A DNA stretch of 30,844 nucleotides from Neocallimastix lanati (nom. inval.) (taxonomy: Eukaryota > Neocallimastigomycota > Neocallimastigomycetes > Neocallimastigales > Neocallimastigaceae): contig JACVTC010000414.1 in the NCBI GenBank assembly GCA_016946835.1, forward strand, positions 1-30,844, given 5' to 3'. The notes beneath the pieces were generated by a model that did not search any database, was not told where the DNA came from, and worked only from the letters and a program-made list of their open reading frames with translations. Below are positions 57 to 30,844 of the stretch, in pieces (position 1 is the first letter of the stretch; the number at the start of each line of letters is the position of its first letter). Position numbers and translations under genes: made by a program.

Positions 57-847
57 CCCCAATGAAGTGGACTGTTTTTCCAGGTCCATGGAGGGTTGAT
101 GGAAAAGGAATAACCTATATCAGGTGTACTAATTACAGCTTTCTGTGATTCTGATGATAATATATGGTTATACTTTCTAAAGTGGCTCCCGAGCAGGGGT
201 GTACTCGATTTATGTATTTAAATCGCCTGCAAGGGGAATTAACTTTACTCTTATTAAAGTAGATCCACAGTACTGGTGCAAAATAGTAGTAAAGTTATAT
301 TTTGTGTTAATTAATAACATTATGCGCAATGGTAATGTTTTTGGTAAAATTTTTCTGGTGAACACTCACTGCGGAATATAATGGTGCTTTTTTGGAACAT
401 TGTTAAATAAGTTACACCCAAGAATTAGTAATACATTTTCATTGTATTTCTATTTTCATGTAGTATTACTATTCTCATGTAAGAATCTATTGTATTCAAT
501 TGTATTTCAACTTTATATTTCATGTATCACGTTGTAAGAGATTGATTCACTCTAAATCTTGTAGTAATTTATTTAACTCTGTACTAATTTTGTGCCATTT
601 TATTTCATCAATTCAATCTTAGTCATTAAATACTTTATGATATTCAATTTAAATAATATACTGAAAAAAGTGCTAAATCAAATTATTTTTCAATCATTCA
701 ACAAACTACTAATTATCGAAATTATTTACTCCAAAAAGATATAAAATTATTACAATTCTCATTATACTCAAGACTTTATAATAAAAATTGACTTTTTTTT
801 ATTTTTTTTTTTTTTTTAGTTATTAATTTTTAGTTTTTATTACTATT
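57..847 (+). other. 5' leader of LINE copy 1
   Basis: The stretch precedes the LINE start codon. Bases 57-410 have nearly normal base composition; 410-840 is very A+T-rich and ends in a T run near 794-818. A LINE internal promoter would be expected in such a leader, but no specific motif can be pointed out. The small ORF at 199-381 has no recognisable feature and is not called as a gene. Confidence 0.6.
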
Positions 848-3800
848 ATGGAAATCCAATTTATAAGAAATAAGAATTTCATTCTAAGAGGTTCAAGGTG
901 CCACGGTATACCAATGGAGAATACGAAACTACTCTTTATCCGCGGACTTCGATCTTGGCCAGAAATCAAAATGAGAAGACATTTAAAGAAAACTCTGAAT
1001 GAATTAAATGATAAGGTTTTATCAGTTAAACGTATTGCTAATTTTAATGATGCATTCTTTAAAATTAAAATAGTAGGTAATGAAGAAGAATTAACATCTA
1101 TTACTGATTGTATTGTTAATAGTTTCAAACGTGCTTCAATTAACGTTATTAATTGTAGCAAAAGGAATCATAAATACAGTTTTTCTTCACTCAAAAGGAA
1201 ACATTTTGCCTTATCAGAAAAAGTGAATTCATCTTATAATATCAACTTATTCACTACTTCAAATTCAAATGCAGATTCAAGTCAAAATTCAAATTCAAGT
1301 TCAAATACAGATTCATGTTCAAGTTCAAGTACAAGCTCAAGTTCAAGTTCAAGTCCAAGTTCAAGTACAAGCTCAAGTTCAAGTTCAAGTACAAGTTTAA
1401 GTACAAGTTCAAGTACAGGTTCAAGTTCAAGTTCAAGTACAAGTTCAAGTTCAAGTTCAAGTTCAAGTACAAGTTCAAGTTCAATTTCAAATTTATGTTT
1501 AAATTCAGTTTCAAGCTCAGATTCAAATTCAAATTTCAGTTCAATCAATTATAATAATTCCAATAATATTAATAACACTCATATTAATAATAATACAGTT
1601 AAAGAATTTTCTCTATGTGTCAGTTGGAATACTAATGGATGGAACTTTGATAAAAAAGACAGTGTTGAATTCTTTATTTCAATGTACAAACCACTTTTCT
1701 TATGCTTTCAGGAAACAGGAAATGGTTCAGGTTCTAGCAGTAAATATCCATGTCGAGTATCATTAAAAAACTACAAACATTTCTTCAAAAAAGCTAATAA
1801 TGAAATTCCCGGTAAAAGAGGTCTTTATATTGGGTTTCATAATTCTTGTCAAGCCTCTCTTGAAAACAACACTTATGAGTATATTATTTCCTTGTATACT
1901 TATAATTTTTGGAATTTCACTAAATGTTCTATTGGTAATGTGTACGTACCTCATAGTGGCCATAGCCTTCATGCTAGAGCTGCTAGAATTGAAATATTGT
2001 CTTGGTTAAATAGTCACTCTTCTCATCCTTCAATGTTGGTTGGTGATTTTAATTTACCTACTGAGAAATTAAGTAATTTGCTCTCTAAATTTAGTAATTG
2101 GAAAATTCTTCCCTTATGGGGCTCCCCAATTTCATGGAGTAGAGGTAATAGAGAATCTGATATAGATCATGCGATTGTCAATGATCATATATTAGATTTA
2201 CTTTCATATGGTACTTTTATTGACTTTCCCCCCATTTCGGATCATAAACCTTTATTAATAAAAGGTAAATGTTTTTCATCAGTTAATTCAGATAATTCTT
2301 TCTCTCTGCCTAAAAAGACAGTTAAATGGGATAGATTAAAATGTATAAATGAAAAAGAATCAATTTTTGACAACAACTATTTTAGTGTATTAGAGGAAGT
2401 GATTCCAGATCCTAATATTAGTATTGATGATATTTCAAAGAAATTTATTTCAACTTCATTCAATATTGCTAAGGAACTTAATATCACGTCAATTTCAGAA
2501 GTTCGAAAATCTTTTTTTCATATGTCGCAGAAAATATTTAATTTGCAAAAACTCAAAATGAAATTATATAAATCCATTAAAAGAAGAGGTTCTTATCATA
2601 ATTTAGATGAATTTGAAGAATTAATTGATAAATATAATAGAATGTGCAAAATTATTCATCATATGTGTAATATTTATAGGAAAACTGAATACCAACATTG
2701 GATTAATACAGGATGTGAATATATGAAATCTCATAACCCTAAAAAAGCTTGGAAATGGCTTAAAACAACAGCAAAAGTAGATAAATTTAAAAATATGTCA
2801 AATTCTCCAGTAAAGGACAAAAATGGTAAACTAGCTACTTCTACTAAAGAACAGTTAGAAGTATGGCACAATCACTATAAAAAACTTGCTTCAAGCCATT
2901 CTGATATCAATAGTGCATTAATCGAATGGTATAATAAATTTTCCAATGGAACATTTAGGTATACGAGACACAATGAATGGGATATAAATCAAGACATCAG
3001 TATAGAAGAAATTAGAGAAGCAATTTTGGCTACTCCAAATTTTAAAGCTTCAGGCCCGGATGGAATTCCTATTGAATTTTATAAAGCTTTAATTCCTCCG
3101 GATGACGAAAATTCAGTAAATAATTCTTCTTCTGGTTTAAATTGTTTACAGAAGATATACTCAAGAATTTGGAATGGAGAATTTCCTAGCTCATGGAATG
3201 AAGCAAGTATTATATCTATTCCTAAAAAAGGAGATGATCTATCTGATTGTGACAATTATCGAGGTATCTCTCTGATTAACAATGGTATTAAACTCATTTC
3301 GAAAATAGTCTCCAAAAGAATTTCAGAATATGGACTTAAAAATAATTTTATTAGGCCAGAGCAATTTGGATTTCGTACTAAAGAAGAATGTGTTAGTTTA
3401 TTTATTTCAATTCGAGAAATTTGTCAAAGGCGTAAAAATGATAATAAAGAAACTTACCTAGCTTTTCTAGATTTAAAAAAGGCATATGATTCTGTTCCAA
3501 TAGGTAATATTTTATATAAATTAGATGCTTTAGGTATTAGAGGTAAATGTTATCAATTTATAAAAAATCTATATTTGACATCCAAAGCTAGTGTTAAAAT
3601 TGATGATCAATATTCGGAATCTTTTAATATTATGAAAGGAGTTAGACAAGGTTGTCCACTATCACCAATTCTTTTCAATCTTTTTATTAATGACATTTTT
3701 AATGTTGTTTTCAGAACTTGGAATTCCTTTAGGCGAATCTAGATGTTGTGGTGGACTCTTTGCAGATGATATTGTTCTATGCGCACCGTCAAGAATTAAG

Positions 3801-5269
3801 TTGAAAAAAATGCTTAAGAAGGTAAATGAATGGGCTAAATTTAATATGATGAATTTTGGAATTAATAAGTGTGCAACGATGGTGATTCGACCAGACACAC
3901 CTCTTTTTCAAAATAAAAGAGATCCTACTTTTATCTTGCTGGTCAATCAATTCCAATAACTAAATGTTATACCTATTTAGGTATACCATTTGATAAAAGC
4001 TTATCGTTGAAACCTATTATTAAATTACTTAACTCTAAAGTAACTAAATCTCTCTTTTCTGTTAGTAAATTTCTTTCAAATTCCAAAATTCCTATTCCAT
4101 TTAAGAAGATTATAATTAACTCTTATGTACTTAGTAAAGTCTCTTACTTTGCACCTTTACTTGGTTCGAATAAAACGAGAACAAATAATACTCAGAAATT
4201 AATTAATAAAGGATTAAGATGGATTGCAGGTATACAAAAAGCCAAATCATTTATTAATGTATATTCTATTTCAAAAGATTTACATATTCCTCCATTGTCA
4301 GCTAAGTGTGCTTTGTCTCAGGTCAAATGTTTTGATAAATGGAAAAATTCAAATTGTATTATTTCCTATTTAGTTAATAATATTCCAAAATCTAGAAAAT
4401 ATACATGGACAAAAGAAAGTAGAACTCTTAAACGTAAACTAGAGAAAAGAGGTAATAACGATAATAAAATCAAGGATTTTTATTGGAAAAGAGATATGAA
4501 AATCAATTCTATTAAAGCTGAGTTTTATGACAAAAACAAATTCGAAGAAACATCAAAATTTATAAAATTTTGTTATGACTATCCTGATCTTTCATATGGT
4601 TTCTATTGGCTATTGAGAGCACGAAGCGGATATAGATTAGATGCTAGAATTGCTAAAGCTGCAAAAATAGTGGACCAAATGTGTCCTAATTTTTGTCCCT
4701 GTTGTAAAAGTAATAAACAATGGATAAGTCATTGGTTAATTGATTGTCCCTTTTTCAATCATACTCGTAGTAAAGTTAATGATAAAATTTTATTTTTATA
4801 TAATGCTTTTTACCGTGGCAACCTAACAAATGATATTGTTAATAGTAATAATGATAATAGTAATAGTAATAATAGTAATAGTTATAATAGTAATAATAAT
4901 ATTAGTAATAGTATTTTTAGTAATGTTAGTAATAGTATTGAAAATAATGTGTATATTGATTCTAGTGTGTGTGAAAAAGTGTTTAATTTCCTTCTTGGAG
5001 GTCGAAGTATTAATAACAGTACAAGGGAATGGAAGGATCTATTTAAGTGCCAGATGAAATCAGGTGCTTATTCTGATACTCCGTTCTTAGTAGTTACTGC
5101 GGCACTTCTCCAATCGATTATACCTATTGCTATTGGCCAGCAATGGTCTTTATTCAATAGGTTCAAATCGAATCGTACTACTACTACCAAGAGCGTCAAT
5201 GCTGAAGAAACAGTAAGACAGGCCAGCAGGGCTAGCGCAACTAATGAAGATCATAATTTTGTATCTTAA
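848..5269 (+). pseudogene. LINE polyprotein: endonuclease / reverse transcriptase / zinc knuckle, two frameshifts
   Basis: The reading frame starts at ATG 848. Residues 1-130 are a basic N-terminal domain of unclear fold, followed by a Ser-rich low-complexity segment (about 137-230). An exonuclease-endonuclease-phosphatase domain follows, with SWNTNGW near 258, QETG, GDFNLP near 399, SDIDHA near 437 and SDHKPLL near 464. Reverse transcriptase motifs are SGPDGIP near 734, YRGISLIN, QFGFR, FLDLKKAYDSVP near 873, GVRQGCPLSP near 931, and FADD at about 3761-3772. The C-terminus has a CPCC...H...C knuckle (4695-4750) and an Asn/Ser-rich stretch (about 4830-4960). The frame changes by one extra base near 3705-3713 and one missing base near 3930, both in T-rich runs. 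The role is reverse transcription and integration of its own RNA. The shifts may be sequencing errors, since the flanking repeat is still perfect. Confidence 0.9.
1258..1540 (+). repeat. Hexanucleotide (TTCAAG-type) repeat coding poly-Ser in LINE ORF
   Basis: Imperfect tandem hexamers of the TTCAAG type give a run of Ser with scattered Thr and Asn in the LINE frame. The reverse-strand and other-frame ORFs here are artefacts of the repeat. It separates the N-terminal domain from the endonuclease domain and is probably a flexible linker. Its length is likely variable among copies. Confidence 0.85.
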
Positions 5270-5530: not shown

Positions 5531-5572
5531 TGATGTTAAGTTGGGTGATTTTATAGGAGGGGACGTATTCAT

Positions 5573-5628
5573 CTACCTCCCCTACTTGCATAAAATCTAA
5601 ATTTGGTCAAGATATTATCTCTCCTACT
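5573..5628. repeat. Right copy of long target-site duplication
   Basis: The sequence is identical to 1-56. It reads in frame into the coding sequence of the older LINE (SPTKQLDRWAEYY follows), so the target was the older element. The 42 bases between the poly(A) end and this block (5531-5572) probably also belong to the duplication, but the matching left part would lie outside the window. Confidence 0.85.
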
Positions 5629-8295
5629 AAACAATTAGATAGATGGGCTGAATATTATAAAGATCTAGCTTCTGATCCCTCAGGTCACAGCCTTAATTGT
5701 AACTTCTGGATCCATGCTTTAAGGAATATTAGTCTTAGATCCTCTACCTGGAATATCAACGATTCCATTACGATTGACGATATTAAAAAAACAATTTCAT
5801 CTATGAAAAACAACAAAGCACCCGGCCCCGATGGTATCCCGATTGAATTCTACAAAGCTCTGTTTTGCAATGAAGAATTACTAGAAACACATCCTGCTGC
5901 TGGAAAATGTCTTAAATTGATTTTTAATAAAATATGGAATGGGTCTTTTCCTAAAAAATGGAACTCAGCTTCTATTGTATCAATCCCTAAGAAAGGTGAC
6001 CTATCAGATTGTAGTAATTATCGAGGTATTTCTCTCATTAATGTTGGACTGAAAATCATTTCAAAAATTGTAACAGATAGAATATCTTCTTACGCACTCT
6101 CACACAATTTCATTAGACCTGAACAATTTGGCTTTCGCAACCGTGAAGAATGCATTAGTTTATTCATTTCCGTTAGAGAAATATGCCAAAGAAGAAAATT
6201 TCAAGGAAAATTCACATATTTTAGCCTTTTTAGATCTTAAAAAAAGCTTATGATTCAGTTCCTATTTTTAACATTCTTACTAAATTATATCATTATGGCG
6301 TACGTGGTAAATGTTTTGATTTTTCTTTGTAATTTATATACTTCATCTAAAGCTCGTGCTCGATTTGCTTCAATGTTATCAAATGAATTTCCTATTAAAA
6401 GAGGTGTTCGTCAAGGTTGTCCATTATCTCCAATTTTATTCAATTTATTCATCAATGATATATTAAAATGACTGTGAAAAGTATGGTGTTAATATTGGAA
6501 GAAAAAAGTGTTGTGGTGGACTCTTTGCTGATGATGTTGTTCTCATTGCTCCAAGTGCAAAAAAAATTTAGAAAAATTACTAAAAAAAGGTACATAAATG
6601 GGCTAATTTAAATGAAATGACTTTTGGTATTGAAAAATGTGCAACTATGGTTATAAAACCAATGAACTTCCAATCTCCTCCAAACTATAGTGACCCAACC
6701 TTCTATTTAGGAATGAATGCTATTCCTAAAGTTTCTAGTTATGTCTATCTTGGTATTCCTTTTTCTGATGATCTCCTACTAGAACACATTATATCTCACA
6801 TGCATTTTAAAGTTAGAAAATCCCTTCTTTCATTTACACGTTTCTTCTCAAATAAACTTATCCCTATTGCATACAAGAAAAAAAGTTCTTCAATCCTTTG
6901 TTATTAGTAAAGTAATTTATTATTCTCCTTTACTTGGTTCAAACAAATCTAGAACGGCTAGAATTCAAACATTAATTAATACTGGTCTATTTTGGTGTAT
7001 CGGTTCCTTCTCTAAAAATGGTAAAACAAATACAGAAAACAATGACTATATTAGACATAATTCAACAATGAGTACTTATGCTTTATCTCGAGATCTAAGC
7101 ATCCCTCCTATTGCTGGTATCTGCGCAGCCTTACAGATTAAATCATTTTGCAAAATGGAGTAAATCAAACTGTATCATAAAGGATCTTATTAAATCTATT
7201 CCCAAAATGCCTTATTATTCCTTGGACTAAAGAATCTAGAACACTATATAAAAAAAAATCAAAAAATATAAATGTGTAAAATATGAAGATATTATAGAAC
7301 GTTACTGGAAATCAGTTTCCAGATTTCAAGGTATTAAAGGTCAAAACTACGATAGTAACAAGTTCTCAAACAATAAAGCTATAATAATGCTTAGCTTAAA
7401 ATATCCCCAATTCAACTTAGGATTTTCGTGGATTATACGTTTACGCTGTGGTTATAAATACAATACTACTTATTGCTATTAGAATGGGTAGAGTTTCAGA
7501 AGATTGTCCAAAGTCCTGCCCCTGTTGTGGTGAATGTAATCAATCTTTTTGAACATTGGATTTTTAAATGCGATGCTCTTGCATCTTTTAGATGGAATTC
7601 TTTAAATTTCATCGATGATCTCTATGTTTTATTCCTTAGGAAGATTAGAAGCGTTTAATCCTCTTTCTTCCTATGACTCTATTTCTGATTTTGAAGATTA
7701 TATCAAATCATTATATATACTTGTTCCTTCTTGGTGGGAACTTTAGTTTTAAATGAACTACATTTCGATAGTGGGGAACAGAGACATTTAAATGAACTAC
7801 TTTTCAAAAGGTTCATCTGAGTCACCTGTTCCAAAAAATTGTGGGCTTGGCGGAATTCTTAACAAGTGCAATACCTATCATTAGTAGTTCGTTTGAGCTA
7901 TTATTTGATAGGTATTTGCAAAATACCAAACTTATCCAAGAGCGTCGACGTCGTACTGATAAGGCATCAATGATAATACAGGATCGTCATCTATTGCTAC
8001 GAAGGATGAATCTCTCCCTAGTAGTTTAATAAATGATGAGTCCGGGGAGAGTTTAGTGGACACCACACTATCTATTTTAAAGATGTTACTTCTAGGTTTT
8101 ATTTCTTTTTTATTTGATAGGAAGGGAAAAATTCCCGCATAGTACAAATTGCCGAAATACATAGTATTTTCGAGCTTTTTTATTTTTTTTTTTTATTTTT
8201 TAATTTTTTATTTTTAATTTCAAATGTACTTTTCACCTACATGTATTTTTTAAAATAAAATTTAATAAAGTTTTGGAAGTGTATTCTCTTCCCTG

Positions 8296-14224: not shown

Positions 14225-14857
14225 ATGGAAGACAATATAGAAATTGTAATAAGTGAAACAAATCGAGGAAATGAACAAATTATTATTAATAAAAAACACA
14301 AATTTAATTTTTCATTTCAAACGAAAGATAAATCAAAAATTTATTGATACACTGAATATAAGACTTTAAATAAATGTAAATCTTTAATTATTTTAAATGA
14401 TAAAAAGGAGGTTTTAAAATATGAAAGTTTACATAACCATCTCGAAAAAGAAATTGATGTGTCTATATCAGTATCAAAGCATAAAATTAAGGAAGAAATT
14501 AAGAAAAATTCAATTCTTATGGATATAAAACCTAAACATATATTTAATGCCGTTTCTCAAGAAATGGGACTTATATGTCCCGAATATAGTACAATTAGAT
14601 CCCAAATAATAAGAAATATAAATAAACAATTTCCTCCAAACATAAAAAGTTTTGATGATATTCCCATTGAATCAGAATATTATAAAACGAAAAGAAATGA
14701 AAATTTTATGATATTTAAAAATACTGATCTAATAATCTTTCAATCACCATTCCAAGCATATTTATTTTCGAATTATCATAAAAATATATTTGCGGACGGT
14801 ACATTTTATGCAGCACCGAAATTTAGTTATCAGTTATTTATAACAAGAATAGTTTAA
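14225..14857 (+). pseudogene. FLYWCH / MULE-type transposase N-terminal relic
   Basis: From ATG 14225 the frame runs 40 codons to a TGA at 14345-14347 and then continues open in the same frame to 14857. The part around the stop resembles a FLYWCH-type zinc finger: a Tyr/Trp-rich strand, a Cys near 14375 and HNH near 14440. The TGA stands where an aromatic residue is expected. The last part (FADGTFYAAPKFSYQLFI) is the start of a MULE transposase catalytic domain with its first Asp. The protein stops directly afterwards, where the 84-bp tandem repeats begin, so the rest of the catalytic domain is missing. It is a dead fragment of a Mutator-like element. MULE identity is from family knowledge of the DGTF...P...QL pattern. 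Confidence 0.7.
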
Positions 14858-16173: not shown

Positions 16174-16396
16174 TTAACCACGCCAACACCAACCATATTC
16201 AGTAAGACAGTATTTACCAACTATATCATAAACACGAGCATCACGATCAACATAACTTCTCCATGAAAATCCACCTCTTGTGTTATTTGGTGTGTAATAA
16301 CATCCATTTTTGGTACTTATATGTCTAGTAATCCATTTACATTTATCTGGATTTTTATATTGTGTATCTCTAAGATATGCTCCAACAGGGATTTCT
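16174..16396 (-). CDS. Orphan C-terminal coding exon, Cys-containing protein of unknown function
   Basis: Reading right to left, a frame of about 74 codons ends at TAA (16176-16174). The translation contains EIPVGAYLRDTQY, KCKWITRHI, NGCYYTPNNTRGGFSW and KYCLTEYGWCW at the end. Base composition is clearly less A+T-rich than the surroundings, as in a real exon. Its 5' border has a good acceptor (CTTAC branch-like motif followed by TAATTATAG, ending at 16397). The open frame continues about 12 codons further without an ATG, so 5' exons are missing or lie antisense to the microexon array. Four Cys and many aromatic residues suggest a secreted domain. I do not recognise the family. It could be the stranded tail of a gene cut by rearrangement. 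Confidence 0.5.
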
Positions 16397-16406
16397 CTAT
16401 AATTAG

Positions 16407-16538
16407 GTAAGATTAATTTTTTGTTTAATTGTTATTAAAAAATTTTAAAAATAATTGAAAATAACATATATTTATTATAAATATTTTTAATATTTAATAA
16501 TTATAAAATTTTAATTACAAATTTCTTTATCTATATAG
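16407..16538 (+). other. First intron-like unit of the array, starting at AG|GTAAGA
   Basis: A donor-like GTAAGA at 16407 directly follows an acceptor-like AATTAG. The distance to the first triplet (132 bases) equals the usual intron length in the array. No exon in the required phase is open upstream (TAA in frame), so the site may be a zero-length (recursive) splice site or the broken edge of the array. The same bases serve as branch-like motif and acceptor for the minus-strand exon. Confidence 0.4.
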
Positions 16539-18763
16539 GCAGTAAGTATAAATATATATTTAAATGTATTATTAAAATTTTCTTAAAAACTAATTTTAAA
16601 CAACATATATTTATTATGAATATTTTAAATATTGAATAATTGTAAATTTTATAATATAAATTATTTCATATCAATAGGGAGTAAATATGAATTTATGTTT
16701 AGTTATTATTAAATATTATTGAAATTAATTTGTAAATAACATATACTTATTATCAATCATTCAAATATTTGATTATTATAAATTTTGATTTATAAATTCT
16801 TTTATATAAATAGGCCGTAAGAATAAATAATATACTTTAATATTATATTAAAAATTTAAAAATTTATAATAAATAACATATATTTATCAAAAATATTTTT
16901 AATGTTTGTTTTTATTAATATTATAATACAAATTATTTTATTATAAACAGAATGTAAGTAAATATATAATTAAATATATATAATAAAAATTTTTGAAATT
17001 AATTGTATATTATAATTAATTGTATATTATATATTACAAATATTTATTTTCATTCATTCAAATATTTGATTATTATTAATTTTATGCTACAAAATATTTC
17101 ATGTAAATAGGCGGTAAGTATAAATATACAATTAAATATTTTATTAATAGTTTTAAAACTAATTATAAATAATAAATATTTATTATAAATTATTCATATA
17201 TTTAATTATTATAACTTTTATATTATAAATTATTTAATACAAATAGTTTGTAAGTATAAATATATATTTAAATGTATCATTAAAATTTTTTTAAAAACTA
17301 ATTTTAGACAACATATATTTATTATGAATATTTTAAATATTGAATAATTGTAAATTTTATAATACAAATTATTTCATATCAGTAGGGGGGGGGGGGTAAA
17401 TATGAATTTTATGTTTAGTTATTATTAAATATTATTAAAATTAATATGTAAATAATATATACTTATTATTAATCATTCAAATATTTGATTATTATAAATT
17501 TTGTATTATAAATTCTTATATATATATAGGCCGTAAGTATAAATTTATCTTAAAAGATTCTATTAAAAATTTTTGAAATTAATTGTATATTACATTTATT
17601 TATTATTTATATTCTAAATATTTGATTATTAAAAAATTTATAATACAAAATATTTCATATAAATAGCCCGTTAAGTTTAAATCTATATTTAAATATATTA
17701 TTAAAATTTTTTAAAATTAATTGTAAAATAGTATATAGATTATTAATCATTAAAGTATTTAATCATTAAAATATTTAATTAATATAAATTTTATATTATA
17801 AATTATTTCATATAAATAGATGGTAAGTATAAATTTATAGTTTAATATATTTATAAAATTTTATAAAATTAATTATAAATAAACTCTATTTGTTATAAAT
17901 CATTTATATAATTTGATTATTATTAATATTATACTACAAATTATTTCATATAAATAGATAGTAAGTTTAAATATATATTTAAATACATTGTAAAAAAAAA
18001 AGAAAATTAAAATAAATTGTAAACATATATTTAATATAAATATTTTAAATATTTAAATATTATTAATATTATACTATAAATTATTTTGTATAAATAGAAA
18101 GTAAGTATAAATTTATATTTTTATATATTTTTGAAATTAATTGAAAATAACTAATGTATATTATAAATATTTTTAAATATTTAATTATTATTAATTTTAT
18201 ACTACAAAATTATTTCATATAAATAGGTGGTATGTATAAATATATATATTAATTTTATTATTAAAATTTTTTGGATGTAATTGTAAATAACAAATTATTT
18301 ATTTATTATTAATTTTATACTACAAAATATTTCATATAAAATAGTTGGTATGCATAAATTTATGCCTAGATATTATTAAAAATATTTTAAATTATTAAAA
18401 TTAATTTTAGAAATATATATATATATATATATATAATTAATGTTTGATAATTTTATATTTTTAATTTTATATTGCTAATTGTTTCAAATGAAAAGAACGT
18501 GAGCATTTATATAAATATAAATTTAAAAATATATTAAATAATTATATATGAGTATTAAAAAATATATTTAAAATATTTAATAAACTTTAATATTATATAA
18601 TAAATACTTCTGTATAAAATAGTCAGTAAGTATAGATATATATATATTACTTTGTTAATAAAATTATTTAAATTATAATAATTAAAATACATTTTAAAAA
18701 AAAAATTTAAAAAAATTATATATTTATTTATATATTTTATTTATTGTTACTCATAAATAGTGT
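16539..18763 (+). repeat. Array of 17 units of about 138 bp with 3-nt candidate microexons
   Basis: Each unit reads TATAAATAG-like acceptor, three bases (17 sites, one expanded), then GTAAGTATAAAT-like donor and an A+T-rich intron-like body. Triplets and starts are: GCA 16539, GGA 16678, GCC 16814, AAT 16951, GCG 17111, TTT 17247, a G run 17386 (10 nt), GCC 17530, CCC 17667 (donor GTTAAG), ATG 17820, ATA 17958, AAA 18098, GTG 18227, TTG 18345, AAC 18496 (donor GTGAGC), TCA 18623, TGT 18761. Spacing is mostly 127-153 bases. The intron bodies are recognisable homologues of each other, while the triplets differ. Counting the G run as GGG, about half of the triplet bases are G or C, against perhaps a tenth in the introns. 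In the phase open in the downstream exons there is no stop. No upstream first exon was found. Confidence 0.6.
17386..17396 (+). repeat. Run of 11 G at one microexon site
   Basis: In a region with almost no G or C, eleven G lie between the acceptor AGTAG and TAAATATG. The neighbouring unit at 16676 has GGGA in this place. With GTAAAT as donor the exon is 10 nt and would shift the frame; a GGG triplet would keep it. It is either a slippage expansion or a base-calling error. Confidence 0.8.
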
Positions 18764-18907
18764 GTAAGTATAAATATATAGTAAATGCATTATAAATTCA
18801 TTTAAATTTATTATAATTAATTTATTTATAAATTATATCTTAATAAATATTTTAAATAATAATATATATTTTTAATTTTTATTTAAAAATTTATTTTATA
18901 TAAATAG

Positions 18908-23227
<4,320 letters not shown>

Positions 23228-23387: not shown

Positions 23388-25955
23388 AAGAAGAAGAAGA
23401 AGAAGAAAATGAAGAAAATGAAGAAGAAAATGAAGAAGAAGAAGAAGAAGAAAATGTTGAAGAAGAGGAAAATGAAGAAGATGAAGAAGATGAAGAGAAT
23501 GAAGAAGAAGAAGAAGAAGAGAATGAGGAAGAAGAAAAAGAAAATGAAGAAGAAGAAGAAGAAGAGAATGAGGAAGAAGAAAAAGAAAATGAAGAAGAAG
23601 AAGAAGAAGAAGAGAATGAGGAAGAAGAAAAAGAAAATGAAGAAGAAAATGAAGAAGAAGAAGAAGAAGAAAATGAAGAAAATGAAGAAGAAAATGAAGA
23701 AGAAGAAGAAGAAAATGAAGAAGAAGAAAATGAAGAAAATGAAGAAGAAAATGAAGAAGAAGAAGAAGAAGAAGAAGAAGAAGAAAATGAAGAAAAAGAA
23801 GAAGAGAATAATGAAGAGGAAGAAGAAGAAGAAAATGTTGAAGAAGAAGAAGATAATGAAGAAGAAGAAGAAAATGTTGAAGAAGAGGAAAATGAAGAGG
23901 AAGAAGAAGAAGAGAATGAAGAAGAAGAAAATGATGAAGAAGAAGAAGAGAATGATGAAGAAGAAGAAAATGATGAAGAAGAAGAAGAAAATGATGAAGA
24001 AGAAGAAGAGAATGATGAAGAAGAAGAAAATAATGAAGAAGAAGAAGAGAATGATGAAGAAGAAGAGAATGATGAAGAAGAAGAAAATGATGAAGAGGAA
24101 AATGATGAAGAAGAAGAGAATGATGAAGAAGAAGAGAATGATGAAGAAGAAAATGATGAAGAAGAAGAAGAAGAAGATAATGAAGAAGAAGAAGAAGAAG
24201 AAGATAATGAAGAAGAAGAAGAAAATGAAGAAAATGAAGAAGAAGAAGAAGAAGAAAATGAAGAAGAAGAAGAAGAAGAAAATGAAGAAGAAGAAGAAGA
24301 AGAAGAAAATTAAGAAGAAGATGAAGAAGAAAATAAAGAAGAAGAAGAAGAAGAAAATAAAGAAGAAGAAGAAGAAGAAAATAAAGAAAATGAAGAAGAA
24401 GAAAATAAAGAAAATGAAGAAGAAAAAGAAGAAGAAAATGAAGAAAATGAAGAAGAAAATGAAGAAGAAGAAGAAGAAAATGAAGAAGAAGAAAATGAAG
24501 AAGAAGAAGAAGAAAATAAAGAAGAAGAAGAAGAAGAAAATAAAGAAAATGAAGAAGAAGAAGAAGAAGAGAATGATGAAAAAGAAGAAAACGATGAAGA
24601 GGAAGAAGAAAATGATGAAGAAAAAGAAAATGATGAAGAAGAAGAAGAAGAGGAAAATGAAGAAGAAGAAAACGATGAAGAAGAAGAAGAAGAAGAAAAT
24701 GAAGAAGAAGAAGAAGAAGAAGAAGAAAATAATGAAGAAGAAGAAGAAGAAAATAAAGAAGAAGAAGAAGAAGAAAATAAAGAAAATGAAGAAGAAGAAA
24801 ATAAAGAAAATGAAGAAGAAGAAGAAGAAGAAAATGAAGAAAATGAAGAAGAAAATGAAGAAGAAGAAGAAGAAGAAGAAAATGAAGAAGAAGAAGAAGA
24901 AGAAAATGAAGAAGAAGAAGAAGAAGAAGAAAATAATGAAGAAGAAGAAGAAGAAAATAAAGAAGAAGATGAAGAAGAAAATAAAGAAGAAGAAGAAGAA
25001 GAAAATAAAGAAGAAGATGAAGAAGAAAATAAAGAAGAAGAAGAAGAAGAAAATAAAGAAGAAGAAGAAGAAGAAAATGAAGGAAAAGAAGAAGAAGAAA
25101 ATAAAGAAGAAGATGAAGAAGAAAATAAAGAAGAAGAAGAAGAAGAAAATAAAGAAGAAGATGAAGAAGAAAATAAAGAAAATGAAGAAGAAGAAAATAA
25201 AGAAAATGAAGAAGAAGAAAATAAAGAAAATGAAGAAGAAGAAGAAGAGAATGAGGAAGGAGAAGGAGAAAATGAAGAAGAAGAAGAAGAAAATGAAGAA
25301 GAAGAAGAAAAAGAAAATGAAGAAAATGAAGAAGAAAATAAAGAAGAAGATGAAGAAGAAAATAAAGAAGAAGAAGAAGAAGAAAATAAAGAAGAAGAAG
25401 AAGAAGAAAATAAAGAAGAAGAAGAAGAAGAAAATTAAGAAGAAGATGAAGAAGAAAATAAAGAAGAAGAAGAAGAAGAAAATAAAGAAGAAGAAGAAGA
25501 AGAAAATAAAGAAAATGAAGAAGAAGAAAATAAAGAAAATGAAGAAGAAAATGAAGAAGAAAATGAAGAAAATGAAGAAGAAAATGAAGAAGAAGAAGAA
25601 GAAAATGAAGAAAATGAAGAAGAAAATGAAGAAGAAGAAGGAGAAAATGAAGAAGAAGAAAATGATGTAGAAGAGAATGATGAAGAAGAAAATAAAGAAA
25701 AAGAAAATGAAGGAAAAGAAGAAGAAGAAGAAAATGAAGAAGAAAACGAAGAAGAGAATGATGAAGAAGAAAATGTTGAAGAAGAAAATGTTGAAGAAGA
25801 GAATGATGAGGAAGAAAATGATAAAGAAGAAAATGATAAAGAAGAAAATGATGAAGAAGAAAATGATGAAGAAGTAAATAATGAAGAAGAAAATGATGAA
25901 AAAGAAAATGATGACGGAGAAGAAGAAAATAATGGTGAAAAAGAAGAAACACCAC
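23388..25955 (+). repeat. GAA-rich low-complexity tract coding acidic brush
   Basis: Over 2.5 kb of GAA codons are interrupted by AAT, GAT, AAA and GTT, with higher-order repeats such as GAA-runs followed by AATAAA. No GAA-frame shift occurs along the tract, which argues for selection on the coding frame. Only two point changes (AAT AAA to AAT TAA) create stops, at 24311 and 25436, in nearly identical surroundings. The open frames in the other phase and on the opposite strand are side effects of the repeat. Confidence 0.9.
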
Positions 25956-27329
25956 GTGAATTTACAATTACTACTACTACTATAACTGATAGTGCTACTG
26001 CTACTGACTCACAATCTGCTACTGTAACTGATAGTGCTACTGCTACTGACTCTCAATCTGCTACTGTAACTGATAGTGCTACTGCTACTGACTCTCAAAC
26101 TGTTACTGACTCTCAATCTGCTACTGTGACTACTACTACAAATAAAACTCAAACTAGTACGAAAACTAGTACTTCAAGAGAAACGAATAGCAATACTGAT
26201 AGATGTGGTGAAGGATATGGTAAATGTGCTGAAGGATACTGTTGTAGTAAGTACGGATGGTGTGGAAAGAGTGAGAAGTACTGTGATGTAAACAAAGGAT
26301 GTCAATCCAAATATGGAAAATGTAATGGTATAGTTGAAGATGATGAAAGATCTGATGACGATGATGAAATTACTGGAGCCCCAGTTGAAGATGATAATGA
26401 ATCTGAAGATGATGAAGAAAGTCCAAAGACTGCAAAGGTATCTGAAAATGATAGATGCGGTAAAGGATTCGGAGTTTGTAAGAAGGGATATTGTTGTAGT
26501 AAGTACGGATGGTGTGGAAAGAGTGAAAAGTACTGTGATGTAAACAAAGGATGTCAATCTGAATTTGGTGAATGTAATAAAAACAACGAAAATGGAAAGC
26601 AATCTGATGCCGAAATTACCGGAATTCCAACTGAAGATGATAATGAATCTGAAGATGATGAAGAAAGTCCAAAGACTGCAAAGGTATCTGAAAATGATAG
26701 ATGCGGTAAAGGATTCGGAGTTTGTAAGAAGGGATACTGTTGTAGTAAGTACGGATGGTGTGGAAAGAGTGAAGCCTACTGTGATGTAAACCAGGGATGT
26801 CAATCCGAAATTTGGTCAATGTAATAGTACAGGAAAAACTGAAGGAAAAACTGAAGGAAATACTGATAGATGTGGTAAAGGATATGGTAAATGTGCTGAA
26901 GGATACTGTTGTAGTAAGTATGGTTGGTGTGGAAAGAGTCAAAAATACTGTGATGTAAACCAAGGATGTCAATCTGAATTTGGAAAATGTAATGAAGTTA
27001 TTAATACTAATGGAAGATGTGGTATTAAGTATGGTAAATGTCCAGAAGGTGAATGTTGTAGTAAATATGGTTGGTGTGGAAAATCTAGTAAATACTGTAA
27101 TATAAGTGAAGGTTGTCAATCAGAATTTGGAAACTGCAAAACTGAGAAGACTATTACTGAGACCACCACTATGAGAACTATTAGAAAATCTTTAAATGGA
27201 AGATGTGGTGAAAAGTATGGCAAATGTCTTCATGGTGAATGCTGTAGTAAGTATGGTTACTGTGGTACTTCCAAAAAATACTGTAAAAAGAGTTCTGGAT
27301 GTCAATCCAATTATGGTACATGTTGGTAA
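23388..27329 (+). CDS. Poly-Glu / Ser-Thr linker / six ChtBD1 chitin-binding domain protein, large 3' exon
   Basis: The exon begins after AAAATAG (acceptor 23386-23387), in the phase set by the microexons. It encodes about 850 residues of Glu with Asn, Asp and Lys, then a Thr/Ser/Ala linker with repeated DSATATDSQSATVT (from 25985), then six hevein-type domains (26201-27326), and stops at TAA 27327-27329 after GTCW. ChtBD1 domains bind chitin or GlcNAc polymers, so the product is probably a secreted or wall-associated protein; the acidic part may act as a long charged spacer (inference). Two in-frame TAA codons (24311-24313 and 25436-25438) and one extra A near 26807-26810 interrupt the frame. 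The first ATG in the intact 3' part is 26126, giving a 232-residue fragment that ends early at 26824. It may be a pseudogene, contain sequencing errors, or be spliced in unseen ways. Confidence 0.75.
25985..26130 (+). repeat. 42-bp Ser/Thr/Ala coding repeat, about 3.3 copies
   Basis: A 14-codon unit reading TDSATATDSQSATV recurs at 25985, 26027 and 26069; the last copy is rearranged. Ser/Thr-rich linkers of this sort are commonly O-glycosylated in fungal wall proteins. The codon frame is kept in each copy. Confidence 0.9.
26201..27326 (+). other. Six ChtBD1 (hevein-like) domains
   Basis: Domains lie at 26201-26326, 26453-26578, 26699-26825, 26868-26993, 27015-27139 and 27201-27326. Each has the pattern RCG..YG.C..G.CCSKYGWCG.S..YC....GCQS.(F/Y)G.C, with eight Cys as in hevein; the last has YGYCG. 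Domains 1-3 are separated by near-identical acidic linkers (EDDNESEDDEESPKTAKVSEN-like), showing recent duplication. Domain 3 carries an extra A near 26807-26810 that shifts the frame four residues before its last Cys. Domains 5 and 6 are more diverged. Confidence 0.92.

Positions 27330-28829: not shown

Positions 28830-30844
<2,015 letters not shown>

Follow-up and report, generated by a model that had tools for sequence, protein, structure and literature searches.

Rows of three-base exons in a probable family of microexon genes of the gut fungus Neocallimastix lanati

We conclude that a row of three-base inserts, each lying between a splice acceptor and a splice donor in a 30,844-nucleotide stretch of Neocallimastix lanati DNA (hereafter the window), is very probably a row of codon-sized exons in a microexon gene, this being the explanation that best fits the evidence as a whole. 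In the gene as we reconstruct it from relatives that seem intact, a leader of two exons would be followed by cysteine-bearing exons of 12–21 bases, 8–62 three-base exons set apart by introns of nearly uniform length, further cysteine-bearing exons of 9–51 bases, and one long exon. With few exceptions, the internal exons have lengths divisible by three and begin at the second position of a codon (intron phase 1).

The first-pass annotation of the window had described 17 consecutive candidate microexons between positions 16539 and 18763 of the forward strand, about 138 bases apart, and this description holds: all 17 acceptor-insert-donor sites are present, with a spacing of 118–160 bases (mean 138.9). 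When the sites were read directly and tabulated, the insert was found to be exactly three bases long at 16 of the 17, namely GCA (16539–16541), GGA (16678–16680), GCC (16814–16816), AAT (16951–16953), GCG (17111–17113), TTT (17247–17249), GCC (17530–17532), and CCC (17667–17669, followed by a weak donor, GTTAAG, at 17670), and, in the block 17820–18763, ATG, ATA, AAA, GTG, TTG, AAC, TCA, and TGT, starting at 17820, 17958, 18098, 18227, 18345, 18496, 18623, and 18761, respectively. The remaining site (17386–17395), previously noted as a run of G, consists of ten G and is a damaged unit, the C268 counterpart of which is GGG. The donors are much as claimed (GTAAGT at ten sites, GTAAAT at two, and GTAAGA, GTATGT, GTATGC, GTGAGC, and GTTAAG at one each), as are the acceptors, of which seven of the 17 read exactly ATAAATAG and the others are similar. 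The strict rule used for the triplet counts per array below scores 15 window triplets, the ten-G and GTTAAG sites being excluded. Tandem Repeats Finder reports a period of 139 over 16407–18315 (13.6 copies, 70% matches); the array stretch repeats imperfectly in tandem, with a 139-bp unit and a GC content of ∼10%, and, on this basis and that of direct reading, we place the array of intron-plus-codon units at 16407–18909 on the forward strand. Past 18763, exon-like pieces of 3–45 bases continue to 23227. In the window, the short splice motif taken alone shows only modest enrichment: AATAGNNNGTAAGT, with up to two mismatches, has 34 matches on both strands compared with a mean of 19.4 (largest 33) in shuffled sequence.

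The window corresponds to contig C351 in an assembly of 762 contigs and 199 Mb, and arrays of the same kind occur at nine further loci there, with 8–62 triplets each. Under the strict rule, the counts are 8 (C135), 9 (C112), 11 (C643b), 15 (C90), 18 (C235), 20 (C104b), 25 (C643a), 45 (C268), and 62 (C445). The relatives were examined in ten 20-kb regions and 9.5 kb more from the same assembly. One region, C104a, is nearly the same as the window (99.96% identity over 14.5 kb) and was excluded from the unit, stop, codon, and chain counts. Across the whole genome, a 23-base pattern of one unit has 314 matches with up to two mismatches, 66 of them exact, compared with 113 for the backwards pattern, and a two-unit chain pattern has 147 matches compared with one for the pattern reversed; among the two-unit matches listed, a few (C1, C335, and C434) seem not to be array units. 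In the window and the nine fetched regions, C104a being left out, chains of two sites spaced by 110–140 bases number 114 for an insert of three and none for any other length from 0 to 12, and there are none on the opposite strand. Further, in the window and all ten regions (here including C104a), an acceptor-to-donor distance of three was seen 239 times and any other distance from 0 to 39 at most 13 times, and none of the distance-three cases listed lies on the opposite strand. These array counts are of non-independent events because some arrays arose by recent duplication. The chain of three-base sites is not due to chance. The exact 23-base pattern had no match in a viral contig collection and two stray matches in a prokaryote genome collection (a Spiroplasma and a Peptostreptococcaceae metagenome-assembled genome). 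We also note from one-unit pattern matches that further arrays are present in contigs C70, C431, and C571; there are triplets common to the window, C70, and C431, and C571 shares triplets with C445.

The composition of the inserts is that of codons. Among 141 units left after removal of near-duplicates, in which the invariant flanking AG and GT are a consequence of the selection rule, the three insert columns are near-maximally variable (1.98, 1.69, and 1.92 bits), with a GC content of.43,.25, and.50 compared with.08 in background columns. Positions 1, 2, and 3 of the triplets resemble codon positions 2, 3, and 1 of unrelated open reading frames in the window, and a codon model derived from those frames favored the same phase in nine of ten arrays, the exception being C112, in which another offset scored best. 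At the favored offset, there is one stop in 218 codons, compared with 3 in 228 at offset 0 and 58 in 218 at offset 1. Offset 1 is ruled out by these stops together with the codon model; offset 0, with its three stops only, is ruled out mainly by the codon model and the flanking exons. Shuffling of the triplet order within arrays gave a mean of 6.0 stops compared with the one observed (P =.0046), and the sole in-phase stop sits in C445, at a place where the strict rule dropped a six-base exon; when C445 was omitted, there were no stops compared with 4.4 expected from shuffling (P =.003).

Full gene models were built for five of the eleven regions (C268, C104b, C445, C643a, and the window); C235 was left out because its last exon consists partly of N, and the remaining regions because both gene ends were not placed. 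A model using splice sites and composition without regard to frame gave, for C268, C104b, C445, and C643a, 152 three-base exons and 60 others. As the splice-site tables had been trained mainly on three-base sites, the recovery of three-base exons by such models is partly circular and only the 60 other exons provide an independent test: 53 of them are multiples of three (P = 1e-18), and seven are not. When a frame was imposed, phase 1 scored best in all five genes, the window included. Introns in the modeled genes measure 104–753 bases, and those preceding three-base exons (n = 153) are uniform, with a median of 132 bases (5–95% range, 124–279). The donors of the 211 modeled exons are strong, mostly GTAAGT (130) or GTAAAT (42). 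Words resembling ACAAAT or TACAAA are enriched near acceptors across all 215 introns, and a search of the 62 non-array introns gave no convincing branch-point motif.

In the relatives, the arrays are preceded by a two-exon hydrophobic leader, which reads MLLKYFKILYIVLFQEFLINFVKA in exons 1 and 2 of C268 and is a probable signal peptide judging by its sequence, and then by cysteine-bearing exons of 12–21 bases. They are followed by further cysteine-bearing exons of 9–51 bases and a long last exon with an open frame of 2,057 codons in C445 and of 3,796 in C643a. The corresponding exons of the window, all on the forward strand, are a 12-base exon (TTGGAACGGATG, 18908–18919; its C268 homologue is present in P0001, a protein record described below, as FGTD), the three-base exons AAT (19415–19417) and TAG (19548–19550), a 12-base exon (19655–19666), and a series of modeled exons with cysteine codons: 21 bases at 19823–19843, 9 at 20100–20108, 9 at 20594–20602, 24 at 20794–20817, 12 at 20954–20965, 12 at 21296–21307, 45 at 21826–21870, 12 at 22702–22713, 30 at 22858–22887, and 18 at 23210–23227. 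A further 21-base exon at 21552–21572 is absent from the script model in both the window and C268, and its C268 homologue is present in P0001 as GLKSFNK. The long last exon (23388–27329) encodes a poly-Glu/Asn tract, a Ser/Thr-rich link, and six stretches matching PF00187. Six such stretches are likewise present in the ∼700-residue C-terminal pieces of C445 and C643a that were searched, and the scores (81.2 and 85.4 bits for two window pieces, 143 for C445, and 141.7 for C643a) lie above the curated cut-off of 27.8. The predicted product thus begins with a hydrophobic leader, continues with a cysteine-bearing part and a long stretch of poly-Glu, and has six hevein-type chitin-binding domains at its C-terminal end. 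Two side observations concern the introns of this part. At 19115–19125 of the window, an acceptor and a donor enclose four bases, and, in C268 (at about 10890 as oriented) and C104b, they enclose two (AA); this site, which is incompatible with the frame and absent from P0001, is perhaps a dead unit. Within a predicted intron of the window (20266–20527), there is a perfect TTA microsatellite of 87 copies that is much shorter in C104b and C268.

The protein P0001 ties the array to a spliced product. The predicted C104b exons were spliced together as far as the poly-Glu exon, and their translation served as a query against 5.8 billion proteins. The sole protein to pass was P0001, of 248 residues (E = 8e-53, 57% identity over 95% of the query), the record of which gives a JGI source, a contig of 1,132 bp, and the description "hypothetical protein." The C268 prediction, which had been typed before the letters of P0001 were known, is 98% identical to it, with gaps of one and seven residues. 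In the adjusted model, 172 of 174 residues of the predicted C268 splice product are identical to P0001, including 48 of the 49 codons that touch the array, across 44 three-base and two six-base exons. For this comparison, two leader exons, one 12-base exon, and an AAG exon, all present in the earlier typed prediction, were added to the script model, and two changes were made with P0001 in view: the 21-base exon, which was spotted by eye in the window, and the use of a tandem acceptor such that an exon reads TAGGGG and not GGG. At this tandem acceptor (ATCAG|TAG|GGG), P0001 is consistent with splicing at the first AG, which gives a six-base exon. The resulting C268 model has 67 exons totaling 523 bases and spread over 12.1 kb, and the longest part of P0001 that can be read unspliced from the DNA is 18 residues, in the leader. 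From this, we infer that the nucleic acid behind the P0001 contig was RNA; the match to the C268 splice product means that at least one member of the family is spliced codon by codon. The proposal that the triplets are spliced as exons is therefore borne out for the family, by the passage of P0001 through the C268 array, and not for the window copy, which looks like a relic (see below). The accompanying view, that each exon changes a single codon junction, needs amending: with introns in phase 1, each exon adds one residue. No product skipping the whole array was seen, one product having been found in total. Searches with the C445 and C643a predictions, in one of which 8,000 candidates were scored, gave no spliced relative, and P0003, P0004, and P0005 were rejected as such because their matches are short or of low complexity. 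P0001 itself has no Pfam match at E = 0.1 and one chance-level match in the PDB (E = 0.94).

We next consider how the arrays change. In close relatives, splice sites differ by 0–1.4% and introns by 3.6–6.1%, and paired triplets differ by 12.5% (6/48) between the window and C268, 25% (9/36) between the window and C104b, and 43% (23/54) between C268 and C104b (P for the excess over introns,.008,.0001, and 9e-14, respectively); units were paired by best flank match, so some of these pairs are possibly not strict counterparts. Between C268 and C104b, the differences amount to 23 of 54 triplet bases, 119 of 1966 flanking intron bases, and 1 of 162 splice-site bases. The other downstream exons differ by 7.4% (window and C268), 11.1% (window and C104b), and 14.4% (C268 and C104b), compared with 4.5–5.0% for introns (P =.10,.0001, and 5e-7, respectively). 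The excess divergence is clear for C268 and C104b, less so for the window and C104b, and weakest for the window and C268, and part of it could stem from faster loss of G and C. For the other exons, dN/dS lends no support to positive selection, being uninformative at 46–60 codons (dN of.092,.092, and.121 compared with dS of.107, 0, and.153), and recently copied units within C445 have no significant excess of triplet change (7/81 compared with 167/3200, P =.20). Overall, the data support fast divergence of array residues from gene to gene. The C445 array clearly illustrates how an array can grow through tandem duplication: it is a three-unit repeat of ∼405 bp that reads (Asp-Asp-Phe)n, with flanks differing by 5% at a lag of three units (in 27 closer pairs) and by 22% at a lag of one.

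Several other explanations of the arrays deserve attention. That the stretch is indeed a tandem repeat, with a short motif modestly enriched in the window, would agree with a non-coding AT-rich repeat in which splice-like motifs are incidental and the triplets are meaningless; we consider this extremely unlikely given the codon signature, phase, and scarcity of stops of the triplets and given that the triplets change faster than the introns while the splice sites hardly change at all, and, for C268, it is contradicted by the presence of the triplet-coded residues in P0001. The same record contradicts, again for C268, the idea that the sites are stepping stones for the recursive removal of one long intron and that the triplets are absent from mature RNA. 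Adjoining acceptors and donors at regular steps do resemble recursive sites; nevertheless, P0001 retains 48 of the 49 array codons, and a codon constraint on the triplets would be pointless if they were discarded, which leaves this idea with very little credibility. The significance of P0001 would be altered if it came from an intronless gene or a retrocopy in another strain or species and not from RNA. Its terse record is compatible with such an origin, as are the eight residues ahead of its inner Met, which do not agree with C268 DNA. We consider this origin improbable: a six-frame search of the fungus's own genome with P0001 found no match at E = 0.001, a weak negative because the search had no positive control, and a retrocopy requires a spliced RNA template, so that splicing would still be shown for some past time.

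A further possibility, compatible with three-base exons as such, is that the inclusion of single triplets is regulated and that one gene yields many isoforms differing by single residues. Any three-base exon can be skipped in frame, and the use of the C268 tandem acceptor, with TAGGGG and not GGG in P0001, would accord with variable splicing; on the other side, the only known product contains all of the array exons of the C268 model, and we regard regulated inclusion as conceivable but rather unlikely.

The window copy itself looks, from its sequence, like a 5'-truncated and decayed relic of the family that has retained its array. A pattern search upstream of the window array found no leader exons, and the copy carries the ten-G site (also present in the near-identical C104a), the GTTAAG donor, and, in its last exon, two in-frame stops (24311 and 25436) and a shift of frame near 26790–26822. 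It is doubtful that it is instead a functional variant that uses a different first exon, such as the short forward-strand frame that ends AATTAG at 16406, beside a donor, GTAAGA, at 16407. The good preservation of the window array and its cysteine-bearing exons would suit such a variant, but, apart from the defects just listed, this frame joins the array in the wrong phase (the 15 window triplets then give three stops in 14 codons, at offset 1) and was rejected as a first exon, and the opposite strand has an open frame in the same place. The latter (16174–16398, minus strand) encodes 74 residues ending in a stop (…CLTEYGWCWRG), has no Pfam match, and abuts the first array donor; at its border with that donor (16406/16407), its own strand carries an acceptor-like TTATAG. 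Elsewhere in the window, we noted by eye reverse-transcriptase-like open frames on the forward strand at 827–3742, 3917–5269, and 5557–6240, which are probably the remains of a non-LTR retroelement, and a transposase-like piece in a 169-residue forward-strand frame at 14348–14857 that has no Pfam match; on the minus strand, 28830–30143 encodes a Cys/Met-metabolism PLP-dependent enzyme (PF01053, 441.7 bits).

Returning to the reading that we favor, a row of codon-sized exons, we can propose how it might operate. Three bases are too few for exon definition, from which we infer intron definition and an ordered removal of introns from the 5' end. With each ligation, the following donor would come to lie at the edge of a normally sized exon, and each triplet would become the tip of the growing upstream exon, such that no isolated three-base exon would need to be recognized. 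Because each unit amounts to one codon in phase 1, the gain or loss of units keeps the reading frame, and units may come and go as similar units are duplicated in tandem or exchanged unequally. We expect that the protein would leave the cell and bind chitin via its hevein domains, with a cysteine-bearing, fast-changing head exposed on a long acidic stalk. It is tempting to go further and view it as a "codon array," a dedicated device for residue-by-residue diversification, through unit exchange, unit skipping, or both, in which each codon sits in its own intron and exchange between intron repeats would insert, delete, or swap single residues in frame; we offer this tentatively. If it is true, the skipping and inclusion of units could give rise to a very large number of isoforms of a single surface protein bound to chitin.

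The statement in the first-pass annotation that an ordered series of three-base exons is undescribed in fungi agrees with our search of open-licence papers, in which we found no report of a row of consecutive three-base exons; tens of consecutive one-codon exons are, within that literature, a splicing extreme. The arrays make it possible to test how a spliceosome works where exon definition has nothing to act on and whether intron removal must then proceed stepwise from the 5' end. Such genes escape annotation, as seen in the annotated N. lanati record P0002 (97 residues), the first 29 residues of which correspond to exons 1–3 of C445 before it runs on into an intron.

Features of these genes recall several known systems. 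Hevein-type chitin-binding proteins (PF00187, CBM18) share the six C-terminal stretches found in the window gene, C445, and C643a, whereas neither the poly-Glu stretch nor the N-terminal part encoded by microexons falls within that family. In plants, single exons as short as 1 nt are spliced (PMC8831610), and Trichoderma Xlr2 has a functional microexon of 20 nt, functional microexons having previously been undescribed in filamentous fungi (PMC11121469); in the parts of these reports available to us, such microexons (1–20 nt) number one or two per gene, in contrast to the dozens in a row here. In RS-exons, as far as the source describes them, a donor lies beside an acceptor and ligation to the preceding exon proceeds stepwise (PMC6224609); unlike at recursive splice sites, the insert here is kept in the product (P0001, C268). 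The closest likeness in structure is to two groups of genes. The micro-exon genes (MEGs) of schistosomes combine a secretion leader with numerous short exons, most of them divisible by three in length, that lie between longer introns; the exons are given variously as 3–81 or 6–81 bp and are mostly of 15 bp (PMC10526429). The gut-fungus genes likewise have short exons, mostly multiples of three (152 of three bases and 53 of the 60 others), between long introns, and differ from MEGs, as described in the portion of that source available, in having a row of dozens of one-codon exons and in belonging to a different phylum. The bicycle genes of aphids have many tiny internal exons, nearly all starting from codon position 2 (118 exons in a megacycle gene), and encode rapidly changing, putatively secreted effectors named for their CYC motifs (PMC9168663, as far as available). 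The small internal exons of the gut-fungus genes also start at codon position 2 (phase 1 in all five genes); unlike the insect bicycle genes, P0001 has no CYC motif by eye, and a codon-sized tandem array is not described for bicycle or megacycle genes in what we could consult of that source (PMC9168663). After flatworm MEGs and aphid bicycle genes, the gut-fungus genes are possibly a third case in which tiny exons of the same phase go with predicted secreted, fast-changing proteins. Overall, we conclude that the array is an extreme form of the micro-exon gene, its likeness to MEGs and bicycle genes being one of structure.
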